From assembly GCF_042242105.1 (NCBI RefSeq), contig NC_092028.1, forward strand, positions 14,059,338-14,123,337: 64,000 nt of DNA, read 5' to 3'. Positions within the stretch are counted from its first letter, which is position 1; each line of letters opens with the position of its first letter. The DNA is from Pempheris klunzingeri. Taxonomy: Eukaryota > Chordata > Actinopteri > Acropomatiformes > Pempheridae. Shown here piece after piece: positions 47,100 through 63,905 of this stretch. The notes beneath the pieces are model-generated. The model saw only the letters and a program-made list of their open reading frames with translations. It was not told the DNA's origin and did no database searches. Both the position numbers and the translations under genes were made by a program.

Positions 47100-47975
47100 T
47101 AAGGCTGTGGAAGACATGTTTCATGTTTCAGTTTCATGTCAAAGGTCATACATCATGGCAAGACTGAGCTCAGCAACAAGACAGAAGGCAGTTATACTGC
47201 ATCAGCAAGGTCTCTCCCAAGCAAACATTTCAAAGCAGACTGGGGTTTCAAGATGTGCTGTTCAAGCTCTTTTGAAGAAGCACAAAGAAACGTTGCGATG
47301 TTGCAGGCTGTAGACGCAGAGGTCGGCCAAGGAGACTTAGTGCAGCAGATCAAAGACACATTATGCTCACTTCCCTTCGAAATCAAATGATGTCCAGTAG
47401 CGGTATCAGCTCAGAACCAGCAGAAACCAGTGTGACCAGGTACACCTATCTAATGTCTGGAGAAGTCCGGCCAGAAATGGTCTTCATGGAAGAATTGCAA
47501 AGACACATACCTCCGACATGGAAACACGGCCAAGCAACTCAACTATGCAAGAAAAAACAGGAACTGGGGTGCAGAAAAATGGCAGCAGGTGCTCTGGACT
47601 GATGAGTCAAGTTGAAATATTTGGCTGTAGCAGAGGGCAGTTTGTTCGCCGAAGGGCTGGAGAACGGGACAGTACTGAATGTATGTAGGTGAGGCATGGT
47701 GGAGGTTCCTTGCAAGTTTGAGGCTGCATTTCTGCAAATGGAGTTGGGGATTTGGTCAGGATTAATGGTGTCCTCAATGATGAGAAATACTGGCAGATAC
47801 TTATCCATCATGCAATACCATCAGGGAGGCGTCTGATTGGTCCCAAATGAAGTGATCCATCACTCTTCATTTTGTGAATAGAGTGAAATAAACAATTCAA
47901 TTTTATATTTTTGAAAGCATTCTTAATTTACAGCATTTCTTCACACTCGCCTAAAATGTTTGCACAGTACTGCAT
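47100..47975 (+). pseudogene. Tc1/mariner transposase relic
   Basis: The frame MARLSSATRQKAVILHQQG followed by SKQTGVSRCAVQALLKKHKE is the N-terminal paired-like HTH of Tc1-like transposases. Later pieces in other frames include HGQATQLCKKK and a WTDESS-type catalytic segment. The right end reads GAAAGCATTCTTAATTTACA, then CTAAAATGTTTGCACAGTAC, the usual Tc1-like terminal sequence. Many frameshifts; no matching left terminal repeat found, so it is a truncated fossil. It separates cabp5 from the first V segment. Confidence 0.8.
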
Positions 47976-48117: not shown

Positions 48118-48572
48118 ATGATGAACAAACTGTCTTTTCTGTTGACAGCTCTCTGTCTGCCCTGTAAGTTGCTTCATGCTGCTATACTGATACATTTAAT
48201 GTTTGGGCATTTATTCCTCTCTAGCTCTTACTCGTCTCTTAATACTTGTGGTTCTTTGGCAGGTTTGAATGGCTAGGCTCTGGAGTCGATTCCCTCCACC
48301 TCGGTGTTGAAAAAGCCTCAGGAAACCCTCAGTCTCTCCTGCAAGGGAACTGGATTTGATTTCAGTCAGTCTGGAATGCACTGGATCAGACAGCCTGCAG
48401 GAAAAGCACTGGAATGGATGGGGCTTATTTACTATGATGCAAGTAAAACAGTGTATGCAAGCAGTGCGCAAGGACGCATAGAAATCACCAGAGATAATAG
48501 CAACAGCATGGTGTATCTGAGACTGTCCACCCTAAAGCCAGAGGACTCTGCTGTGTATTACTGTGCTAGACC
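48118..48572 (+). pseudogene. ighv: IGHV segment V1 with one nonsense codon
   Basis: Leader exon 48118-48163 (MMNKLSFLLTALCLP), intron GT-AG, V exon 48263-48572. FR1 reads LNG-stop-ALESIPSTS: a TAG where a Gln is likely (CAG in related segments). The rest is intact: first Cys in LSLSCKGTG, WIRQPAGKALEWMG, VYYCAR. Flanked by a good 23-RSS. Upstream ATACAAAT near 48015 could be a one-mismatch octamer. Different group from the array segments further right. Confidence 0.85.
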
Positions 48573-50183: not shown

Positions 50184-50233
50184 ATGGATATTTTGACAGC
50201 TGGGGGAAAGGGACACAAGTCATTGTAACTGAG
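50184..50233 (+). pseudogene. ighj: JH-like segment J1, no splice donor
   Basis: Reads YFDSWGKGTQVIVTE, with the W-G-x-G motif that marks heavy-chain J (light-chain and TCR J use F-G-x-G). Upstream, TTTTGTG abuts the coding end and GGTTTAAAC lies 22 bp further up, a weak J-type RSS. The coding part ends GAG|CAATAA: the GT donor expected there is missing, so it could not splice to a constant region in the usual way. Confidence 0.7.
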
Positions 50234-53419: not shown

Positions 53420-53821
53420 ATGTTTTCTGTAGCTCTGCTGCTGCTGTTGGTAGCTGGATGTGAGTCTCTCTGGATTTGTTCAAGTCAAAAGTTCTTCTAT
53501 TGTTGTATATCTTGATCATTTGTTATAAAACCTTTTCTTATTTTAACAGGTGTGAAGTGTGAACAGTTGACACAGCCAGCCTCTGTGACTGTGCAGCCTG
53601 GTCAGAATCTGACCATCACCTGTCAGGTCTCTTATTCTGTGAGTGACTACTACACAGCTTGGATCAGACAGCCTGCAGGGAAAGGACTGGAGTGGATTGG
53701 AAGTAGAGCTGGATCCACAGCATACTACAAAGATTCACTAAAGAACAAGTTCAGTATCGACTCAGATGATTCCAGCAAAACAGTGACTCTAAACAGACAG
53801 AATGTGCAGCCTGAAGACTGA
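53420..53821 (+). pseudogene. ighv: IGHV VB1, 3'-truncated
   Basis: Leader exon 53420-53459 (MFSVALLLLLVAG), V exon from 53550: CVKCEQLTQPASVTVQPGQN, WIRQPAGKGLEWIG, TLNRQNVQPED, then TGA at 53819. A deletion of about 60-70 bp, judged against VB3, removes the SAVYYC end of FR3 and the RSS heptamer and spacer, leaving only an AAAACCCC nonamer remnant. This is the only group-B copy with a leader exon. Confidence 0.85.
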
Positions 53822-54824
53822 AAACCCCTCAGTGCCTGAACACTTGTAACAAACCACCAGAGGAGGAGCCCTCAGACCACTAATGATTTCAGGACTTGTT
53901 CATTGTTAAAGAGAGAAACAGACATATTTAGAAATGAAAATGAAAATGAATATAACATTGTTCATTGTCATTGTAACATATAACAATAATAACTATAGTT
54001 TGCTTTGCTTTTATTCCTTCTGGGCTTTACTTTCTCCTCATGTTCTAAAATTACTTATGAAGACTCAGTGATGAAATCAACAGTATAACATAATAACCAG
54101 TATTTATAAAAGTTTATGTTGTATGTGTATGTTTAGTAATCACATGGCACTTTATAATTCAAGTGGTCAGAGAGAAAACTAGACTTCTCCATCTCTGCTA
54201 TTGGCTGTTTTCAGGCTTTAGAAAATCTGGCCTGTGACAGGAGACTTTGGCCAATCACAGGTCTTCTCAGAGAGAGAGCATTCCTATTGACTATTTTGCA
54301 AACGCACGTGCGCGTGCAGGTTGTGTCAGATGCTGGAGGTTCAGGTCTACTGATGATTTGTATAATTGTGTCTGGCAGAGTCACTGTTAGAGTCAATATT
54401 TTGCTGCAAGCATCTGAGTGGATACTGAACTTGCCCAGCATCTGACAAAACATGCACACACATGTTTATGTAGCTAACGCTAGAGCCTCAAACCTCCGTA
54501 TATCATCTCAAAGGGCATTACAGTTCCACACAAAGAACATAGGACACTAAGTGTCATGTAACTGCTGCTATACAGTGTAGCAGCAGTTGACTGACTGAAA
54601 TGATGTTTGTGTTAACCTGTTGCACAAACACTGAAACATGGATTCTTGGATGAATGAGTAATACAGTGAATAATCATTCTCCAGTTTGATCACAGTAACT
54701 GAGAGCCAGGTAAAATCCAGTTCCACACTGAGAGGAGGAGTCAATGCAAAACTCATTAGTTCTCCTACCTCTACTTATCTGACTGCAGAGAGGATGACAG
54801 AGAACAGTGGACACACAGTTCAAC
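53822..54824. other. Spacer between VB1 and VA1
   Basis: Its right half (about 54.40-54.82 kb) is the same sequence that precedes every later A segment. The left part (54.2-54.4 kb) is not repeated in the array. Confidence 0.6.
54720..54824 (+). promoter_or_regulatory. Group-A VH promoter (representative)
   Basis: Each A leader is preceded by the same ~100 bp carrying ATGCAAAA, one base from the Ig octamer ATGCAAAT, about 75 bp before the ATG, with a pyrimidine-rich CTCCTACCTCTACTTATCTG after it. Equivalent copies precede 56388, 57983, 60289, 61862 and 63440. Confidence 0.55.
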
Positions 54825-55251
54825 ATGATGGACTACAGGACAGGACTGCTGCTTTTAGCTGTTTGCTGGACAGGTGAACATTTTTACACTTGGTGTAACT
54901 CAAATTAAAAACATACAACACTTACTTTCATTTTTTGTTGTGCCTTGACAGGTGTTGATGGTCAGACTCTGACTGAATCTGAACCAGCTGTTAAAAGGCC
55001 TGGAGAATCCCACAAATTGACCTGTACAGGCTCTGGATTCACATTCAGCAGCTACTATATGCACTGGGTCAGACAGGCTCCTGGGAAAGGACTGGAGTGG
55101 ATCGCTGCTCAATATAGTAGCAGCATCTACTACTCTCAGTCAGTCCAAGGCCGCTTCACCATCTCCAGAGACAACAGCAGACAGCAGCTGTATCTGCAGA
55201 TGAACAGCCTGAAGACTGAAGATTCTGCTGTTTATTATTGTGCCAAAGACT
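54825..55251 (+). CDS. ighv: IGHV VA1, apparently functional
   Basis: Leader exon 54825-54873 (tandem ATGs, [16 protein letters not shown]), 78-bp intron, V exon 54952-55251. Conserved points: [17 protein letters not shown], first Cys in [55 protein letters not shown]. No stop. CDR2 core [10 protein letters not shown]. Followed by a complete 23-RSS at 55252-55290. Confidence 0.92.
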
Positions 55252-55290
55252 CACAGTGACTGGAGTTGGTTGAGCAGCTGTACAAAATCC
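55252..55290 (+). other. 23-RSS of VA1
   Basis: Heptamer CACAGTG, 23-bp spacer, nonamer ACAAAATCC. Confidence 0.95.
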
Positions 55291-55471
55291 TAAAGTACTC
55301 ATCTTTCAGGCTGGTAGAGCCCAAACGAGATGTATTTTTATAATGTTTATAATGAATTTTATATATTTAATTTTTTTATAGGCTATAGATTTTTAAATGT
55401 TGTTTTATGTTCTCTATGTTAGCCTACATTTCATATATTTCACAACACAAAACACAACATAGATCACAACA

Positions 55472-55730
55472 AGCCAGCCTCTGTGACTGTGCAGCCTGGT
55501 CAGAATCTGACCATCACCTGTCAGGTCTCTTATTCTGTGAGCAGCTACTTCACAGCTTGGATCAGACAGCCTGCAGGGAAAGGACTGGAGTGGATTAGTA
55601 GCGACAGCAACGTTAAAGATTCACTAAAGAACAAGTTCAGTATCAAGACAGACTCTTCCAGCAACACAGTGACTCTAAACAGACAGAATGTTCAGCCTGA
55701 AGACTCTGCTGTGTATTACTGTGCCAGAGA
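55472..55730 (+). pseudogene. ighv: IGHV VB2, leaderless, collapsed RSS
   Basis: The V exon resumes at PASVTVQPGQN; leader, intron, acceptor and first residues are replaced by A-type 3' flank ending CACAACAAG. CDR2 is shortened (WISSDSNVKDSL). FR3 ends [10 protein letters not shown]. The RSS reads CACAACC, 4 bp, ACAAAACCC (55733-55752), so it obeys neither the 12 nor the 23 rule. Confidence 0.85.
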
Positions 55731-56387
55731 GTCACAACCCTGAACAAAACCCTTCAGTGCCTGAACACTTGTAACAAACCACCAGAGGAGGAGCCCTCAG
55801 ACCATTAATGATTTCAGGACTTGTTCATTGTTAAAGAGAGAAACAGACATATTCAGAAATGAAAATTAAAAGGAATACTGAACTTGCTCAGCATCTGACA
55901 AAATGTGCACACGCATGTTTATGTAGCTAACGTTAGAGCCTCAAACCTCCATATATCATCTCAAAGGACATTACAGTTCCACACAAAGAAAATAGGACGC
56001 TAAGTGTCATGTAACTGTTGTTATACAGTGTAGTAGCATGTTATTTGTTGTTTGTTTCTATTAAAATGGATTTAAAAATACACACTTCAGTGTTATTGTA
56101 AAACTGATGAACTATTGTTAAAGTCTTAACATGATGCAGACTGGATTAAATAACTGACTGAAATAATGTTTGTGTTAACCTGTTGTACAAACACTGAAAC
56201 ATGGATTCTTGGATGAATGATTAATACAGTCAATAATCATTCTCCAGTTTGATCACAGTAACTGAGAGCCAGGTAAAATCCAGTTCCACATTGTGAGGAG
56301 GAGTCAATGCAAAACTCATTAGTTCTCCTACCTCTACTTATCTGACTGCAGAGAGGATGACAGAGAACAGTGGACACACAGTTCAAC

Positions 56388-56817
56388 ATGATGGACTACA
56401 GGACAGGACTGCTGCTTTTAGCTGTTTGCTGGACAGGTGAACATTTTTACACTTGGTGTAACTCAAATTAAAAACATACAACACTTACTTTCATTTTTTG
56501 TTGTGCCTTGACAGGTGTTGATGGTCAGACTCTGACTGAATCTGGACCAGCTGTTAAAAGGCCTGGAGAATCCCACAAATTGACCTGTACAGGCTCTGGA
56601 TTCACATTCAGTGGCTACTGGATGCACTGGGTCAGACAGGCTCCTGGAAAAGGACTGGAGTGGGTCGCTGCTCATTATGATAGTAGCAACATCCACTACT
56701 CTCAGTCATTTCAAGGCCGCTTTACCATCTCCAGAGACAACAGCAGACAGCAGGTGTATCTGCAGATGAACAGCCTGAAGACTGAAGATTCTGCTGTTTA
56801 TTATTGTGCCAGAGACT
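56388..56817 (+). CDS. ighv: IGHV VA2, apparently functional
   Basis: Leader exon 56388-56436, V exon 56515-56817. Open throughout. CDR1 FSGYWMH, CDR2 [11 protein letters not shown], then [12 protein letters not shown] and VYYCAR. 23-RSS intact at 56818-56856. Confidence 0.92.
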
Positions 56818-56856
56818 CACAGTGACTGGAGTTGGTTGAGCAGCTGTACAAAATCC
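56818..56856 (+). other. 23-RSS of VA2
   Basis: CACAGTG, 23 bp, ACAAAATCC. Confidence 0.95.
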
Positions 56857-57036
56857 TAAAGCACTCATCTTTGAAGCTGGTAGAGCTCAAACTTGATGTA
56901 TTTTTTTAATGTTTATAATTGATATTATATATTTTATTTTTGTATAGGCTATAGATTTTTAAATGTTGTTTTATGATCACTATGTTAGCCTACATTCCAT
57001 ATATTTCACAACACAAAACACAACATAGATCACAAC

Positions 57037-57309
57037 AAGCCAGCCTCTGTGACTGTGCAGCCTGGTCAGAATCTGACCATCACCTGTCAGGTCTCTTATT
57101 CTGTGAGCAGCTACTTCACAGATTGGATCAGACAGCCTGCAGGGAAAGGACTGGAGTGGATTGGAAGTAGAGCTGGATCCACCACATACTACAAAGATTC
57201 ACTAAGGAACAAGTTCAGTATCGACTTAGACTCTTCCAGCAACACAGCGACTCTGAACTGACAGAACGTGCAGCCTGAAGACTCTGCTGTGTATTACTGT
57301 GCCAGACAC
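57037..57309 (+). pseudogene. ighv: IGHV VB3, leaderless with stop, RSS intact
   Basis: Same leaderless junction as VB2. CDR2 SRAGSTTYY. A TGA at 57259-57261 ends the frame in FR3 (TLN-stop, where its sisters have an Arg or Gly codon). Downstream codons still read [10 protein letters not shown]. The RSS is complete. Confidence 0.85.
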
Positions 57310-57310
57310 T

Positions 57311-57349
57311 CACAGTAACACAAACCATCAGTAGACCTGAACAAAAACC
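57311..57349 (+). other. 23-RSS of VB3
   Basis: Heptamer CACAGTA, 23-bp spacer, consensus nonamer ACAAAAACC at 57341-57349. Confidence 0.92.
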
Positions 57350-57982
57350 CCTCAGAGCCTGAACACTTGTAGCATGAAGCCACCAGAGGAGGAGCCCTCA
57401 GACCACTAATGATTTCAGGACTTGTTCATTGTTAAAGAGAGAAACAAACATATTTATAAATGAAAAAGTAAAAGGAATACTGAACTTTCTCAGCACCTGA
57501 CAAAACGCGCACACGCATGTTTATGTAGCTAACGTTAGAGCCTCAAACCTCCGTATATCATCTCAAAGGGCATTACAGTTCCACACAAAGAACATAGGAA
57601 GCTAAGTGTCATGTAACTGTTGTTATACAGTGTAGCAGCATGTTATTTGTTTCTATTAAAATGGATTTAAAAATACACACTTCAGTGTTATTGTAAAACT
57701 GATGAACTATTGTTAAAGTCTTAACATGATGCAGACTGGATTAAATAACTGACTGAAATAATGTTTGTGTTAACCTGTTGTACAAACACTGAAACATGGA
57801 TTCTTGGATGAATGATTAATACAGTTAATAATCATTCTCCAGTTTGATCACAGTGACTGAGAGCCAGGTAAAATCCAGTTCCTCACTGAGAGGAGGAGTC
57901 AATGCAAAACTCATTAGTTCTCCTACCTCTACTTATCTGACTGCAGAGACGATGACAGAGAACAGTGGACACACAGTTCAAC

Positions 57983-58415
57983 ATGATGGACTACAGGACA
58001 GGACTGCTGCTTTTAGCTGTTTGCTGGACAGGTGAACATTTTTACACTTGGTGTAACTCAAATTAAAAACATACAACACTTACTTTCATTTTTTGTTGTG
58101 CCTTGACAGGTGTTGATGGTCAGACTCTGACTGAATCTGAACCAGCTGTTAAAAGGCCTGGAGAATCCCACAAATTGACCTGTACAGGCTCTGGATTCAC
58201 ATTCAGCAGCCACTGGATGAACTGGGTCAGACAGGCTCCTGGAAAAGGACTGGAGTGGATCGCTTTCATCACCACTGACAGTAGCAGCAAATACTACTCT
58301 CAGTCAGTCCAAGGCCGCTTCACCATCTCCAGAGACAACAGCAGACAGCAGGTGTATCTGCAGATGAACAGCCTGAAGACTGAAGATTCTGCTGTTTATT
58401 ATTGTGCCAAAGACT
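57983..58415 (+). CDS. ighv: IGHV VA3, apparently functional
   Basis: Leader exon 57983-58031, V exon 58110-58415. Open. CDR1 FSSHWMN; CDR2 [12 protein letters not shown] is two residues longer than in VA1. FR3 ends VYYCAK. 23-RSS intact at 58416-58454. Confidence 0.92.
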
Positions 58416-58454
58416 CACAGTGACTGGAGTTGGTTGAGCAGCTGTACAAAATCC
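58416..58454 (+). other. 23-RSS of VA3
   Basis: CACAGTG, 23 bp, ACAAAATCC. Confidence 0.95.
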
Positions 58455-58635
58455 TAAAGCACTCATCTTTGAGGCTGGTAGAGCTCAAACTTGATGTATT
58501 TTTATAATGTTTATAATTGATATTATACATTTTATTTTTGTATAGGCTATAGATTTTTAAATGTTGTTTTATGTTCTCTATGTTAGCCTACATTCCATAT
58601 ATTTCACAACACAAAACACAGCATAGATCACAACA

Positions 58636-58908
58636 AGCCAGCCTCTGTGACTGTGCAGCCTGGTCAGAATCTGACCATCACCTGTCACGTCTCTTATTCT
58701 GTGAGCAGCTACTTCACAGCTTGGATCAGACAGCCTGCAGGGAAAGGACTGGAGTGGATTGGAAGTAGAGCTGGATCCACCACATACTACAAAGATTCAC
58801 TAAGGAACAAGTTCAGTATCGACTTAGACTCTTCCAGCAACACAGCGACTCTAAACGGACAGAATGTGCAGCCTGAAGACTCTGCTGTGTATTACTGTGC
58901 CAGAGAGC
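58636..58908 (+). pseudogene. ighv: IGHV VB4, leaderless but open, RSS intact
   Basis: Open from PASVTVQPGQN through WIRQPAGKGLEWIG to [11 protein letters not shown], with a full 23-RSS (58909-58947). Its only visible defect is the lost leader, acceptor and first FR1 residues. It could still recombine but should not give a secreted chain by the normal route. Confidence 0.85.
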
Positions 58909-58947
58909 CACAGTAACACAAACCATCAGTAGACCTGAACAAAAACC
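58909..58947 (+). other. 23-RSS of VB4
   Basis: CACAGTA, 23 bp, ACAAAAACC. Confidence 0.92.
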
Positions 58948-59006
58948 CCTCAGAGCCTGAACACTTGTAGCATGAAGCCACCAGAGGAGGAGCCCTCAGA
59001 CCACTA

Positions 59007-59042
59007 ATGATTTCAGTACCTGTTCACTGGTACTGAAATCAT
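59007..59042. repeat. 14-bp inverted repeat at unit breakpoint
   Basis: ATGATTTCAGTACC, 8-bp loop, GGTACTGAAATCAT: a perfect hairpin. In sister units the same place reads on as TTTCAGGACTTGTTC, so the right arm is new and marks the start of the extra segment. Confidence 0.9.
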
Positions 59043-59280
59043 CTCCTAACAACTGTCTTATATTGTTTGTACTGTATGTCATATAACAGAAGAAAAGATT
59101 TGGACATTTCAAGAGTAGTTGGAATTTAATTATAAAGCCCAAAATAACAAATAACAATTTGTCTCACACATGTACAAGGTGCAACACCCTGTCAGAAAGA
59201 AAAAACCTCCACAAAAACCTGTTTTCAAATGGAAAAACAGAAAAACCTCAGGTAGAGCAACAGAATCAAGCCCCTCCTAC
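59043..59280. repeat. Inserted non-Ig sequence in third unit
   Basis: Not found in the other units. It contains AAGGTGCAACACCCTGTCAG, AAAAAACCTCC and AACCTCAGGTAGAGCAACAG, which resemble the reverse complement of a common teleost LINE-tail segment. Probably an element fragment carried in during the duplication. Confidence 0.5.
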
Positions 59281-59333
59281 AGTACTCGTGTATGAGGCTG
59301 GTAAAGCCCAAACATGACGTATTTTTACAATTA

Positions 59334-59632
59334 TATTGAAGTGTGAACAGTTGACACAGCCAGCCTCTGTGACTGTGCAGCCTGGTCAGCGTCTGACCAT
59401 CACCTGTCAGGTCTCTTATTCTGTGAGCAGCTACTTCACAGCTTGGATCAGACAGCCTGCAGGGAAAGGACTGGAGTGGATTGGAAGTGGACGGGTTGGA
59501 TCCACCACATACTACAAAGATTCACTAAAGAACAAGTTCAGTATCAAGACAGACTCTTCCAGCAAAACAGTGACTCTAAACGGACAGAACGTGCAGCCTG
59601 AAGACTCTGCTGTGTATTACTGTGCCAGAGAG
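59334..59632 (+). pseudogene. ighv: IGHV VB5, extra leaderless copy
   Basis: Keeps slightly more 5' sequence than the other leaderless copies (KCEQLTQPASV), but there is no acceptor AG or leader before it. Open to [14 protein letters not shown]2 SGRVGSTTYY. RSS collapsed: CACAACC, 4 bp, ACAAAACCC (59634-59653). Preceded by group-A type 3' flank (GAGGCTGGTAAAGCCCAAAC). Confidence 0.83.
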
Positions 59633-60288
59633 CCACAACCCTGAACAAAACCCCTCAGTGCCTGAACACTTGTAACAAACCACCAGAGGAGGAGCCCTCA
59701 GACCACTAATGATTTCAGGACTTGTTCATTGTTAAAGAGAGAAACAGACATATTCAGAAATGAAAATTAAAAGGAATACTGAACTTGCTCAGCATCTGAC
59801 AAAACGTGCACACGCATGTTTATGTAGCTAACGTTAGAGCCTCAAACCTCCATATATCATCTCAAAGGACATTACAGTTCCACACAAAGAAAATAGGAAG
59901 CTAAGTGTCATGTAACTGTTGTTATACAGTGTAGCAGCATGTTATTTGTTGTTTGTTTCTATTAGAATGGATTTAAAAATACACACTTCAGTGTTATTGT
60001 AAAACTGATGAACTATTGTTAAAGTTTTAACATGATGCAGACTGGATTAAATAACTGACTGAAATAATGTTTGTGTTAACCTGTTGCACAAACACTGAAA
60101 CATGGATTCTTGGATGAATGATTAATACAGTTAATAATCATTCTCCAGTTTGATCACAGTGACTGAGAGCCAGGTAAAATCCAGTTCCACACTGAGAGGA
60201 GGAGTCAATGCAAAACTCATTAGTTCTCCTACCTCTACTTATCTGACTGCAGAGAGGATGACAGAGAACAGTGGACACACAGTTCAAC

Positions 60289-60715
60289 ATGATGGACTAC
60301 AGGACAGGACTGCTGCTTTTAGCTGTTTGCTGGACAGGTGAACATTTTTACACTTGGTGTAACTCAAATTAAAAACATACAACACTTACTTTCATTTTTT
60401 GTTGTGCCTTGACAGGTGTTGATGGTCAGACTCTGACTCAATCTGAACCAGCTGTTAAAAGGCCTGGAGAATCCCACAAATTGACCTGTACAGGCTCTGG
60501 ATTCACATTCAGCAGCTACTATATGAACTGGGTCAGACAGGCTCCTGGAAAAGGACTGGAGTGGATCGCTGCTCAATATAGTAGCTACATCTACTACTCT
60601 CAGTCAGTCCAAGGCCGCTTCACCATCTCCAGAGACGACAGCCGACAGCAGGTGTATCTGCAGATGAACAGCCTGAAGACTGAAGATTCTGCTGTTTATT
60701 ATTGTGCCAGACACT
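60289..60715 (+). CDS. ighv: IGHV VA4, apparently functional
   Basis: Leader exon 60289-60337, V exon 60416-60715. Open. FR1 begins [10 protein letters not shown] (Gln for Glu). CDR1 FSSYYMN, CDR2 [12 protein letters not shown]3 ends VYYCARH. 23-RSS intact at 60716-60754. Confidence 0.92.
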
Positions 60716-60754
60716 CACAGTGACTGGAGTTGGTTGAGCAGCTGTACAAAATCC
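60716..60754 (+). other. 23-RSS of VA4
   Basis: CACAGTG, 23 bp, ACAAAATCC. Confidence 0.95.
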
Positions 60755-60930
60755 TAAAGCACTCATCTTTGAGGCTGGTAGAGCTCAAACTTGGTGTATT
60801 TTTCTAATGTTTATAATGAATTTTATATATTTTATTTTTTTATATAGATTTTTAAATGTTGTTTGATGTTCTCTATGTTAGCCTACATTCCATATATTTC
60901 ACAACACAAAACACAACATAGATCACAACA

Positions 60931-61206
60931 AGCCAGCCTCTGTGACTGTGCAGCCTGGTCAGAATCTGACCATCACCTGTCAGGTGTCCTATTCTGTGAG
61001 CAGCTACTACACAGCTTGGATCAGACAGCCTGCAGGGAAAGAACTGGAGTGGATTGGAAGTGGACGGGTTGGATCCACCACATACTACAAAGATTCACTA
61101 AAGAACAAGTTCAGTATCGACTTAGTTGCTTCCAGCAACAAAGCGACTCTAAACAGACAGAACGTGCAGCCTGAAGACTCTGCTGTGTATTACTGTGCCA
61201 GAGAGC
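60931..61206 (+). pseudogene. ighv: IGHV VB6, leaderless, collapsed RSS
   Basis: Open from the shared junction. WIRQPAGKELEWIG has Glu for the usual Gly; CDR2 SGRVGSTTYY. Ends [14 protein letters not shown] remnant CACAATC, 4 bp, ACAAAACCC (61207-61226). Confidence 0.85.
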
Positions 61207-61861
61207 CACAATCCTGAACAAAACCCTTCAGTGTCTGAACACTTGTAACAAACCACCAGAGGAGGAGCCCTCAGACCACTAATGATTTCAGGACTTGTTC
61301 ATTGTTAAAGAGAGAAAAAGACATATTCAGAAATGAAAATTAAAAGGAATACTGAACTTGCTCAGCATCTGACAAAACGCGCACACGCATGTTTATGTAG
61401 CTAACGTTAGAGCCTCAAACCTCCGTATATCATCTCAAAGGACATTACAGTTCCACACAAAGACAATAGGACACTAAGTGTCATGTAACTGTTGTTATAC
61501 AGTGTAGCAGCATGTTATTTGTTGTTTGTTTCTATTAAAATGGATTTAAAAATACACACTTCAGTGTTATTGTAAAACTGATGAACTATTGTTAAAGTCT
61601 TAATATGATGCAGACTGGATTAAATAACTGACTGAAATAATGTTTGTGTTAACCTGTTGCACAAACACTGAAACATGGATTCTTGGATGAATGATTAATA
61701 CAGTGAATAATCATTCTCCAGTTTGATCACAGTGACTGAGAGCCAGGTAAAATCCAGTTCCACATTGAGAGGAGGAGTCAATGCAAAACTCATTAGTTCT
61801 CCTACCTCTACTTATCTGACTGCAGAGAGGATGACAGAGAACAGTGGACACACAGTTCAAC

Positions 61862-62291
61862 ATGATGGACTACAGGACAGGACTGCTGCTTTTAGCTGTT
61901 TGCTGGACAGGTGAACATTTTTACACTTGGTGTAACTCAAATTAAAAACATACAACACTTACTTTCAGTTTTTGTTGTGCCTTGACAGGTGTTGATGGTC
62001 AGACTCTGACTCAATCTGAACCAGCTGTTAAAAGGCCTGGAGAATCCCACAAATTGACCTGTACAGCCTCTGGATTCACATTCAGTGACTACTGGATGGC
62101 CTGGATCAGACAGGCTCCTGGAAAAGGACTGGAGTGGATCGCTGCTCATTATGATAGTAGCAACATCCTCTACTCTCAGTCAGTCCAAGGCCGCTTCACC
62201 ATCTCCAGAGACAACAGCAGACAGCAGGTGTATCTGCAGATGAACAGCCTGAAGACTGAAGATTCTGCTGTTTATTATTGTGCCAGAGACT
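61862..62291 (+). CDS. ighv: IGHV VA5, open but heptamer mutated
   Basis: Leader exon 61862-61910, V exon 61989-62291. Open: [33 protein letters not shown]2 [17 protein letters not shown]. The heptamer reads CACAGAG instead of CACAGTG. The same base change removes the TGA that closes the frame in the other A copies, so the unrearranged frame runs on past the nonamer to about 62383. Recombination efficiency is probably reduced. Confidence 0.88.
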
Positions 62292-62330
62292 CACAGAGAC
62301 TGCAGTTGGTTGAGCAGCTGTACAAAATCC
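62292..62330 (+). other. Altered 23-RSS of VA5
   Basis: Heptamer CACAGAG (position 6 changed), 23-bp spacer, nonamer ACAAAATCC. Confidence 0.92.
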
Positions 62331-62510
62331 TAAAGCACTCATCTGTGAAACTGGTAGAGCCCAAACTTGATGTATTTTTCTAATGTTTATAATTGATATT
62401 ATACATTTTATTTTTGTATAGGCTATAGATTTTTAAATGTTGTTTTATGTTCTCTATGTTAGCCTACATTCCATATATTTCACAACACAAAACACAACAT
62501 AGATCACAAC

Positions 62511-62784
62511 AAGCCAGCCTCTGTGACTGTGCAGCCTGGTCAGCGTCTGACCATCACCTGTCAGGTCTCTTATTCTGTGAGCAGCTACTTCACAGCTTGG
62601 ATCAGACAGCCTGCAGGGAAAGGACTGGAGTGGATTGGAAGTAGAGCTGGATCCACCACATACTACAAAGATTCACTAAAGAACAAGTTCAGTATCAAGA
62701 CAGACTCTTCCAGCAAAACAGTGACTCTAAACGGACAGAACGTGCAGCCTGAAGACTCTGCTGTGTATTACTGTGCCAGAGAGC
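62511..62784 (+). pseudogene. ighv: IGHV VB7, leaderless, collapsed RSS
   Basis: Open from the shared junction: [48 protein letters not shown] remnant CACAATC, 4 bp, ACAAAACCC (62785-62804). Confidence 0.85.
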
Positions 62785-63439
62785 CACAATCCTGAACAAA
62801 ACCCTTCAGTGTCTGAACACTTGTAACAAACCACCAGAGGAGGAGCCCTCAGACCACTAATGATTTCAGGACTTGTTCATTGTTAAAGAGAGAAACAGAC
62901 ATATTCAGAAATGAAAATTAAAAGGAATACTGAACTTGCTCAGCATCTGACAAAACGTGCACATGCATGTTTCTGTAGCTAACGTTAGAGCCTCAAACCT
63001 CCGTATATCATCTCAAAGGACATTACAGTTCCACACAAAGAAAATAGGACACTAAGTGTCATGTAACTGTTGTTATACAGTGTAGCAGCATGTTATTTGT
63101 TGTTTGTTTCTATTAAAATGGATTTAAAAATACACACTTCAGTGTTATTGTAAAACTGATGAACTATTGTTAAAGTCTTAACATGATGCAGACTGGATTA
63201 AATAACTGACTGAAATAATGTTTGTGTTAACCTGTTGCACAAACACTGAAACATGGATTCTTGGATGAATGATTAATACAGTGAATAATCATTCTCCAGT
63301 TTGATCACAGTGACTTAGAGCCAGGTAAAATCCAGTTCCACACTGAGAGGAGGAGTCAATGCAAAACTCATTAGTTCTCCTACCTCTACTTATCTGACTG
63401 CAGAGAGGATGACAGAGAACAGTGGACACACAGTTCAAC

Positions 63440-63866
63440 ATGATGGACTACAGGACAGGACTGCTGCTTTTAGCTGTTTGCTGGACAGGTGAACATTTTT
63501 ACACTTGGTGTAACTCAAATTAAAAACATACAACACTTACTTTCATTTTTTCTTGTGCCTTGACAGGTGTTGATGGTCAGACTCTGACTGAATCTGGACC
63601 AGCTGTTAAAAGGCCTGGAGAATCCCACAAATTGACCTGTACAGGCTCTGGATTCACATTCAGCAGCTATTGGATGGCCTGGATCAGACAGGCTCCTGGA
63701 AAAGGACTGGAGTGGATCGCTGCTCAATATAGTAGCACCATCTCCTACTCTCAGTCAATTCAAGGCCGCTTCACCATCTCCAGAGACGACAGCAGACAGC
63801 AGGTGTATCTGCAGATGAACAGCCTGAAGACTGAAGATTCTGCTGTTTATTATTGTGCCAGAGACT
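63440..63866 (+). CDS. ighv: IGHV VA6, apparently functional
   Basis: Leader exon 63440-63488, V exon 63567-63866. Open. CDR1 FSSYWMA, CDR2 [16 protein letters not shown]. 23-RSS intact at 63867-63905. No B copy follows in the remaining 95 bp, and the flank departs from the other units at about 63918. Confidence 0.92.
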
Positions 63867-63905
63867 CACAGTGACTGCAGTTGGTTGAGCAGCTGTACAA
63901 AATCC
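63867..63905 (+). other. 23-RSS of VA6
   Basis: CACAGTG, 23 bp, ACAAAATCC. Confidence 0.95.

Follow-up and report, generated by a model that had tools for sequence, protein, structure and literature searches.

Introduction

The pseudo-V sequences of the chicken lack a leader and mostly lack a recombination signal sequence (RSS). As far as the available portions of the published accounts go, they are V-like sequences with open frames that lie upstream of a functional V gene (PMC9772431, PMC3308330, PMC10917233). Similar portions of reports on fish describe partial V pseudogenes, internal amplification and possible conversion in salmonid immunoglobulin heavy-chain (IGH) loci (PMC6866254, PMC2996982), transcription of some pseudogenes in the variable-gene (IGHV) loci of Atlantic salmon and rainbow trout (PMC2996982, PMC6866254) and, in the Atlantic cod IGH locus, closely packed IGHV genes, some of which lie within 1.5 kb of each other and have a single TATA box and octamer in common (PMC11223323). 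For V families, birth-and-death evolution is described, in the portion available, as a combination of duplication, deletion, pseudogene formation and exchange in one cluster (PMC3308330). Here we examine a locus that resembles the chicken, cod and birth-and-death cases in these respects, the 5′ edge of the IGHV array of a bony fish (teleost), Pempheris klunzingeri, in a window of 64,000 nucleotides (the whole stretch of DNA that was analyzed). The evidence supports one deletion that fused the 3′ flank of a V gene of one family, A, to the exon of a V gene of another, B, followed by tandem copying of the fused unit.

Such headless fusions set the locus apart from the salmonid and cod loci as these are described in the portions at hand. 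The portions of the salmonid reports at hand describe no fused unit of an A gene and a headless B segment copied with one junction (PMC2996982, PMC6866254). Those of the cod report do not describe its V genes as headless fusions, whereas most of the partners described here also lack an RSS (PMC11223323).

A fused A-B unit in five copies

Two kinds of VH exon, both on the + strand, occupy the last 10 kb of the window, whose DNA is vertebrate. The window and the next 140 kb downstream were scanned, 204 kb in all, and positions above 64000 are window coordinates continued downstream. A genes are numbered VA1-VA8. The numbering of the B copies, VB1-VB9, follows the apparent scheme of a preliminary description of this DNA, from which we take VB1 to be the leader-bearing copy at 53.4 kb.

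C17:14059338-14123337, the window in its contig
55291..55471, + strand: A 3′ flank and filler (junction J) behind VA1; the flank ends at 55467 and the 4-bp filler is 55468-55471

The junction at which most leaderless B exons begin, junction J, is base-identical in VB2, VB3, VB4, VB6 and VB7, always behind VA1-VA5. The A flank ends in ATAGATCAC, four filler bases (AACA) follow, and the B exon starts from AGCCAGCC. The 15-mer CACAACAAGCCAGCC occurs at 55465, 57031, 58629, 60924 and 62505, and a search of both strands of the 204 kb for a 22-mer over the junction, with up to 3 substitutions, found no matches beyond the same five. Across these units the A-to-B gap is 210-215 bp, the dead or crippled B copy lying ∼180 bp behind the RSS of its A gene, and start-to-start unit spacings are 1563, 1595, 2306, 1573 and 1578 bp.

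An unfused comparator, the VA7-VB9 pair, lies just downstream of the window, and there the B copy still bears a leader. The 3′ flank of VA7 is collinear with the J flank up to ATAGATCAC (88.7% identity over 177 aligned bases, nearly identical over the last ∼40) and then diverges, and relative to this pair the fused copies lack ∼760 bp. All five J copies, and both copies of a second fusion described below, have the same breakpoint as their fellows and collinear flanks. Because the J junctions are identical in five copies and an unfused pair is preserved beside them, a single deletion followed by copying is supported for these five.

These junctions and the comparator can be read directly, as can the missing leaders and signals, and they fit the following history. 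Two V families would have mostly alternated, an A gene being followed by a B gene ∼0.95 kb behind. In one such pair a ∼760-bp deletion would have removed the promoter, leader, intron and first codons of B, bringing the B exon up against the 3′ flank of A. The resulting compact unit of ∼1.57 kb, a functional A gene with a headless B, would then have been copied in tandem by unequal exchange, which we infer as the copying step, to give the five present copies, while the second fusion was copied to two. Recombination between units may have kept shuffling their halves and their cassettes of complementarity-determining region 2 (CDR2). The B copies would be hitch-hikers with no function of their own, given that the fused ones lack a promoter or leader, that most edge copies lack an RSS and that they are drifting; selection, if any, would act on the A genes. 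This combination of an amplified fused unit, hitch-hiking B copies and recombining units is in our view the best overall explanation, with a probability of roughly 0.82.

Several parts of this account had been anticipated. The preliminary description held that all leaderless B copies but VB5 share one junction, and five of the six in the window are indeed identical there while VB5 differs. Its further statement that each functional V drags a dead or crippled partner ∼180 bp behind it is true of VA1-VA5, and its placement of intact A segments and leaderless B segments was borne out by six complete A genes and the expected B exons. It named independent junctions or an overlooked B leader as grounds for abandoning its proposal; the five J copies show no independent junctions, and a scan of both strands with up to 5 substitutions found no B leader between that of VB1 (53420) and one at 66645. 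Its history of one deletion and subsequent tandem copying stands for the five J copies but is not the whole story, since there are also a second fusion (VB5 and VB8), recombination and conflicting sites. The loss of RSSs above all, but also the sharing of the VB5 junction with VB8, the mixing of junctions and RSS states, and the alternation with complete B genes downstream are additions of the present analysis.

Intact A genes

54825..55290, + strand: VA1, complete IGHV; leader 54825-54873, V exon 54952-55251, RSS 55252-55290; Pfam V-set
56388..56856, + strand: VA2, complete IGHV; 23-spacer RSS at 56818
57983..58454, + strand: VA3, complete IGHV; 23-spacer RSS at 58416
60289..60754, + strand: VA4, complete IGHV; 23-spacer RSS at 60716
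61862..62330, + strand: VA5, IGHV; heptamer CACAGAG, one mismatch
63440..63905, + strand: VA6, complete IGHV; 23-spacer RSS at 63867; VB8, a copy of the second fusion, lies behind it beyond the window

All six A genes found in 54825-63866 have a leader, a GT donor, an AG acceptor and an open V exon, together with the conserved Cys, Trp and Cys and the 23-spacer RSS by which teleost IGHV genes are recognized. Their signals match 14 or 15 of 16 consensus bases, and the octamer-like sequence ATGCAAAA stands at -81 in each. Of the A genes, VA1 was run against Pfam. Beyond the window, VA7 and VA8 passed the scan for leader, acceptor, frame and RSS. Leader and intron are nearly identical among VA1-VA8 (mean p 0.004) and differ by 0.348 from those of the other 35 A genes in which a leader was identified.

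A 12-spacer RSS-like match (CACAGTG, with a nonamer of 6/9) is present at 57849, 60155, 61728 and 63306, ∼134 bases 5′ of the leaders of VA3-VA6. These matches are probably due to chance.

Defective B copies

53420..53821, + strand: VB1; exons for leader (53420-53459) and V (starting at 53550); class T, cut off at the 3′ end ahead of Cys104 and the RSS
55472..55742, + strand: VB2; no leader (junction J), frame open, RSS deleted; residues of CDR2 match a complete B gene at locus position 173638
57038..57349, + strand: VB3; leaderless (junction J), TGA stop, RSS intact (57311-57349)
58636..58947, + strand: VB4; leaderless (junction J), open, RSS intact (58909-58947); Pfam V-set
59275..59644, + strand: VB5; remnant of an A 3′ flank fused to a B exon (junction K; exon from ∼59336), open, RSS deleted
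60931..61216, + strand: VB6; leaderless (junction J), open, RSS deleted
62512..62794, + strand: VB7; no leader (junction J), frame open, RSS deleted; exon almost the same as those of VB8 and VB5

These copies are recognizably V segments. The three tested against Pfam (VB1, VB4 and VB5) match the V-set model, and in the PDB VB4 finds matches among the variable domains of antibody heavy chains. Yet every one of the seven in the window, and nine of nine when VB8 and VB9 are added, combines V homology with a lost leader, RSS or frame, which is the make-up of a V pseudogene or truncated V. A leader is present in VB1 only (1/7). The RSS scan returned signals at VB3 (57311) and VB4 (58909) alone among the seven, both of them leaderless, and seven of the nine B copies at the 5′ edge have none, the two that keep one being VB3, which has a stop, and VB4. 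VB2, VB5, VB6 and VB7 share a deletion of ∼20 bases within the RSS. An open frame and an RSS thus occur together only in VB4 among the window copies, and four of the five open leaderless copies also lack an RSS. With a confidence equal to that in the overall explanation, we regard the edge B copies as pseudogenes that hitch-hike next to amplified functional V genes.

A second fusion and other lesions

The junction of VB5, junction K, is found at 59326 and 64441 only, in VB5 and VB8, whose common stretch of 306 bp is 98.4% identical. VB5 has no A partner. Compared with J, junction K lies closer to the A gene on the A side and begins earlier in the B exon, and because each junction keeps sequence that the other lacks, no further deletion could turn one into the other. 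VB1 and VB9, the latter at locus position 66778, have a third lesion in common, the class T truncation at the 3′ end.

Farther downstream, another A-B fusion (165632-166453), separate from J and K, has retained a splice acceptor, an open frame and an RSS across a 76-bp gap, and a B copy at 137425 is truncated at its 5′ end. This separate fusion, whose B exon lies at 166158, and the truncated copy indicate that B heads were lost repeatedly in the locus, in J, in K, in the 166158 fusion and in the 137425 copy.

Two smaller features lie in the spacers. Between VB1 and VA1, at 54306-54381, the 3′ end and RSS of a B copy survive as an inverted remnant (80.9% across 47 aligned bases), which also holds part of the start of the repeat unit. 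The other is a hairpin that is possibly the scar of template-switch repair.

59007..59042, + strand: imperfect hairpin at the boundary of the VB4 3′ flank and the spacer upstream of VB5; inverted self-match 88.9%

Probable recombination among the units

Correct readings of the 3′ flank were obtained for 21 of the 22 downstream B copies (the exception, 137425, has an intact RSS in another scan), and all 21 carry the intact type of signal and flank, one of them (94457) with a spacer 2 bases longer. We take the intact type to be ancestral because it is found in all copies read. Junction J is seen both with the intact RSS (VB3, VB4) and with the deleted RSS (VB2, VB6, VB7), while K and T are confined to copies with the deleted-type flank. 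Unless a deletion happened more than once, such mixing of junction class and RSS state requires recombination between copies.

Other mosaic patterns are also visible. Among 38 informative sites in the five units, 51% of pairs are incompatible, neighboring sites less so than shuffled ones, and a home-made test of the pairwise homoplasy index (PHI) type gives p 0.006-0.012. The exon of VB7, a J copy, groups with those of the K copies VB5 and VB8 (support 97/97), differing from VB8 at 3 aligned positions and from VB5 at 6. The CDR2 insert of VB5 is the same as that of VB6, and the CDR2 residues of VB2 are those of the complete B gene at 173638 with one silent base difference. A single clade for all nine edge B exons was rejected weakly by the approximately unbiased (AU) test (p 0.037, CDRs included).

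Drift and open frames

That B copies other than VB3 are open, as the preliminary description stated, is correct, VB3 having a TGA stop, but its suggestion that open frames hint at use did not hold up. In a neutral simulation at least 5 of 6 copies were still open in 27-61% of runs, a rough figure obtained with substitutions only, no indels and four assumed divergences. Open frames were thus rejected as evidence of use. The comparison of synonymous and non-synonymous change that it called for gives a framework ratio of non-synonymous to synonymous differences (pN/pS) of 0.98 (0.36-3.45) for VB2-VB7, too imprecise to decide the matter, and 0.89 (0.35-3.96) for the A genes.

The frameworks of the edge copies seem to drift apart while those downstream stay nearly uniform. 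Codon comparisons with downstream B used 20 of the 22 copies, 137425 being truncated at its 5′ end and 161493 missed by the start motif. VB1-VB9 contain 28 replacement (one a stop) and 10 silent framework codons that are absent from these 20, an excess seen directly, and in a leave-one-out count each downstream copy has on average 0.25 private replacement and 0.05 private silent codons.

Several points weigh against the explanation that we prefer. These two codon counts are different tests, and a change shared by edge copies can be counted several times in the first. The pN/pS ratio cannot separate A from B frameworks, both intervals being wide. VB4 retains both its frame and its RSS, and the 4-bp filler at junction J is not traceable. 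Finally, mean divergence, at 0-0.7% in leader and intron, rises to 9-12% in some stretches of the A 3′ flank and of CDR2 and framework 3 of B; as divergence is so uneven along the unit, copying and drift are not enough, and homogenization or exchange must be added.

In the 20 downstream copies the pN/pS ratio is 3.40, with an interval (0.85-194) that is so wide because silent differences are nearly absent. Framework pS among them, over 69-175 kb of the locus, is 0.006, yet CDR2 is strongly variable. The near absence of silent differences may reflect homogenized frameworks with exchange of cassettes.

Alternative explanations

The alternative that survives best, although we consider it unlikely, is that the leaderless B copies persist because they supply sequence, by somatic gene conversion, to expressed A or B genes, as chicken pseudo-V sequences do. 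Their 5′ position in the array, lack of a leader, mostly missing RSSs, mostly open frames and varied CDR2 would suit such a role, although open frames are expected by drift and an array with many complete rearrangeable V genes has no need of donors. The preliminary description had raised this possibility, and it fares differently for the two kinds of recipient. Donation to the A partners appears unlikely from the sequences: mean A-B identity is 0.55, the longest shared run is 20 bases, and a search of VA1-VA6 for B tracts with k-mers of 10-16 found none, the only A-private k-mers present in B being overlapping ones around a single differing base in VA1 and a 10-mer in VA5. Donation to the complete downstream B genes is possible as judged by identity, VB4 being 89-95% identical to 22 downstream B-family matches (one partial), and the CDR2 residues common to VB2 and the gene at 173638 imply either a transfer of sequence between edge and downstream copies or common inheritance. 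No germline donation from edge to the 20 downstream B copies was seen, in a test that is weak, as it covered only codons chosen for their absence downstream: S11N (5/9 edge copies), D63K (4/9) and G75R (4/9) occur in 0/20. The private framework codons of the edge B copies would allow donor use to be tested directly in repertoire reads.

A second alternative, rather less probable, is that the B exon, through skipping of the A exon, uses the promoter and leader of the A gene in front of it, so that VB4 and the 166158 fusion could be expressed after V(D)J joining. Fusion units might then be two-exon V cassettes in which one promoter and leader serve either an A or a headless B exon, with VB4 and above all the 166158 fusion as live examples; we doubt this as strongly, but if it were true the deletions that removed B leaders need not have silenced B. 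Spliced to an AG 9 bases 5′ of the B start, the A leader would be in frame with B, and at 166158, where acceptor, frame and RSS are kept, the A leader also joins in frame. Sharing of one TATA box and octamer by cod V genes within 1.5 kb, in the portion of that report available, offers a parallel (PMC11223323). However, the pyrimidine tract before this AG is poor (0.38, the 30th percentile in the window, versus 0.75-0.81 for true acceptors), and that at 166158 is weak too (0.44, 45th percentile). Another in-frame AG, 90 bases ahead of B in 4/5 units, has a good tract (0.75) but runs into a stop, and the better acceptor of the A exon itself sits upstream. Moreover, four of the five J copies lack an RSS or have a stop, so at most VB4 could benefit in the window.

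It is slightly less likely still that one unit was falsely duplicated in the assembly. Near-identical tandem copies are prone to such errors, but these copies differ by ∼1-2% upstream of A (U2-U6), by 2-4% in the A gene and by 1-10% among the VB2-VB7 exons, and they have distinct CDRs, distinct RSS states, a stop in VB3 and differing start-to-start spacings. Convergence upon the shared junction, or separate loss of the leader in each B copy, is refuted for J by five copies that are identical at the junction down to the 4-bp filler, within units alike along their length, even though leaders were lost more than once in the locus (junction K, 137425, 166158).

The surrounding locus

The window lies on one contig of a 646-Mb genome. 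A whole-genome search with the VB4 exon found matches on this single contig among those listed (40 of 53 candidates scored). A J motif at 180694, recognized by regular expression only, and, at 182.0-183.7 kb, three exons of the immunoglobulin constant type (best E for C1-set 2.5e-13) have the same direction as the V array, which identifies the locus, from its predicted features, as a heavy-chain V array read towards its J-C region.

Downstream of the edge, A and B genes alternate for the most part. A B exon stands behind an A gene at 27 places in the 204 kb, and at 19 of these a B leader is present. The A-to-B gap is 925-981 bp in 16 of the 19 leader-bearing pairs (VA7-VB9 included) and 559-560 bp in the other 3. 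Strictly complete copies number 41 of 49 for A and 17 of 31 for B. Complete B copies are 0/9 at the 5′ edge and 17/22 downstream (Fisher p 1e-4, for groups drawn after the data were seen). Three V matches of a third family and four fragments below 90 bits were excluded from this count, and six B-like copies of less than 65% identity were counted separately, as the acceptor test, as written, could not pass them. Among the 8 A genes scored incomplete, six fail the leader pattern (one also with a stop), which suits only two leader types, and two fail the RSS test.

Five open reading frames of the window outside the V cluster gave no Pfam match. In the segment 50150-50310, which lies between the A/B array and a V gene whose V exon is 48295-48570, a JH-like motif (WGKGTQVIV, 50201-50227) is followed ∼60 bases further by another J-like fragment (KGTMVTIT). 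By eye, 47401-47880 resembles what we take to be a decayed fragment of a Tc1-like transposon, although two reading frames tried there had no Pfam match.

Comparison with known systems

The array keeps together the steps by which functional genes and debris are made, from the unfused VA7-VB9 pair through fusion at J to fusion at K and loss of the RSS. It also cautions annotators against reading function into an open V frame, as four of the five leaderless B copies with open frames in the window have no RSS either. The open-licence literature, in the portions available, yielded no description of a fused unit of an A gene and a headless B, a weak result given that restriction of scope. The array is unlike the chicken system, as the available portions of those accounts present it, in having many complete rearrangeable V genes, A neighbors only 55% identical to B and no donated tract in the germline (PMC9772431, PMC3308330, PMC10917233). 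Compared with birth-and-death evolution in general, its intermediate steps (unfused, fused and signal lost) are preserved side by side. It is thus a well-preserved case of ordinary birth-and-death evolution and not a new kind of system.

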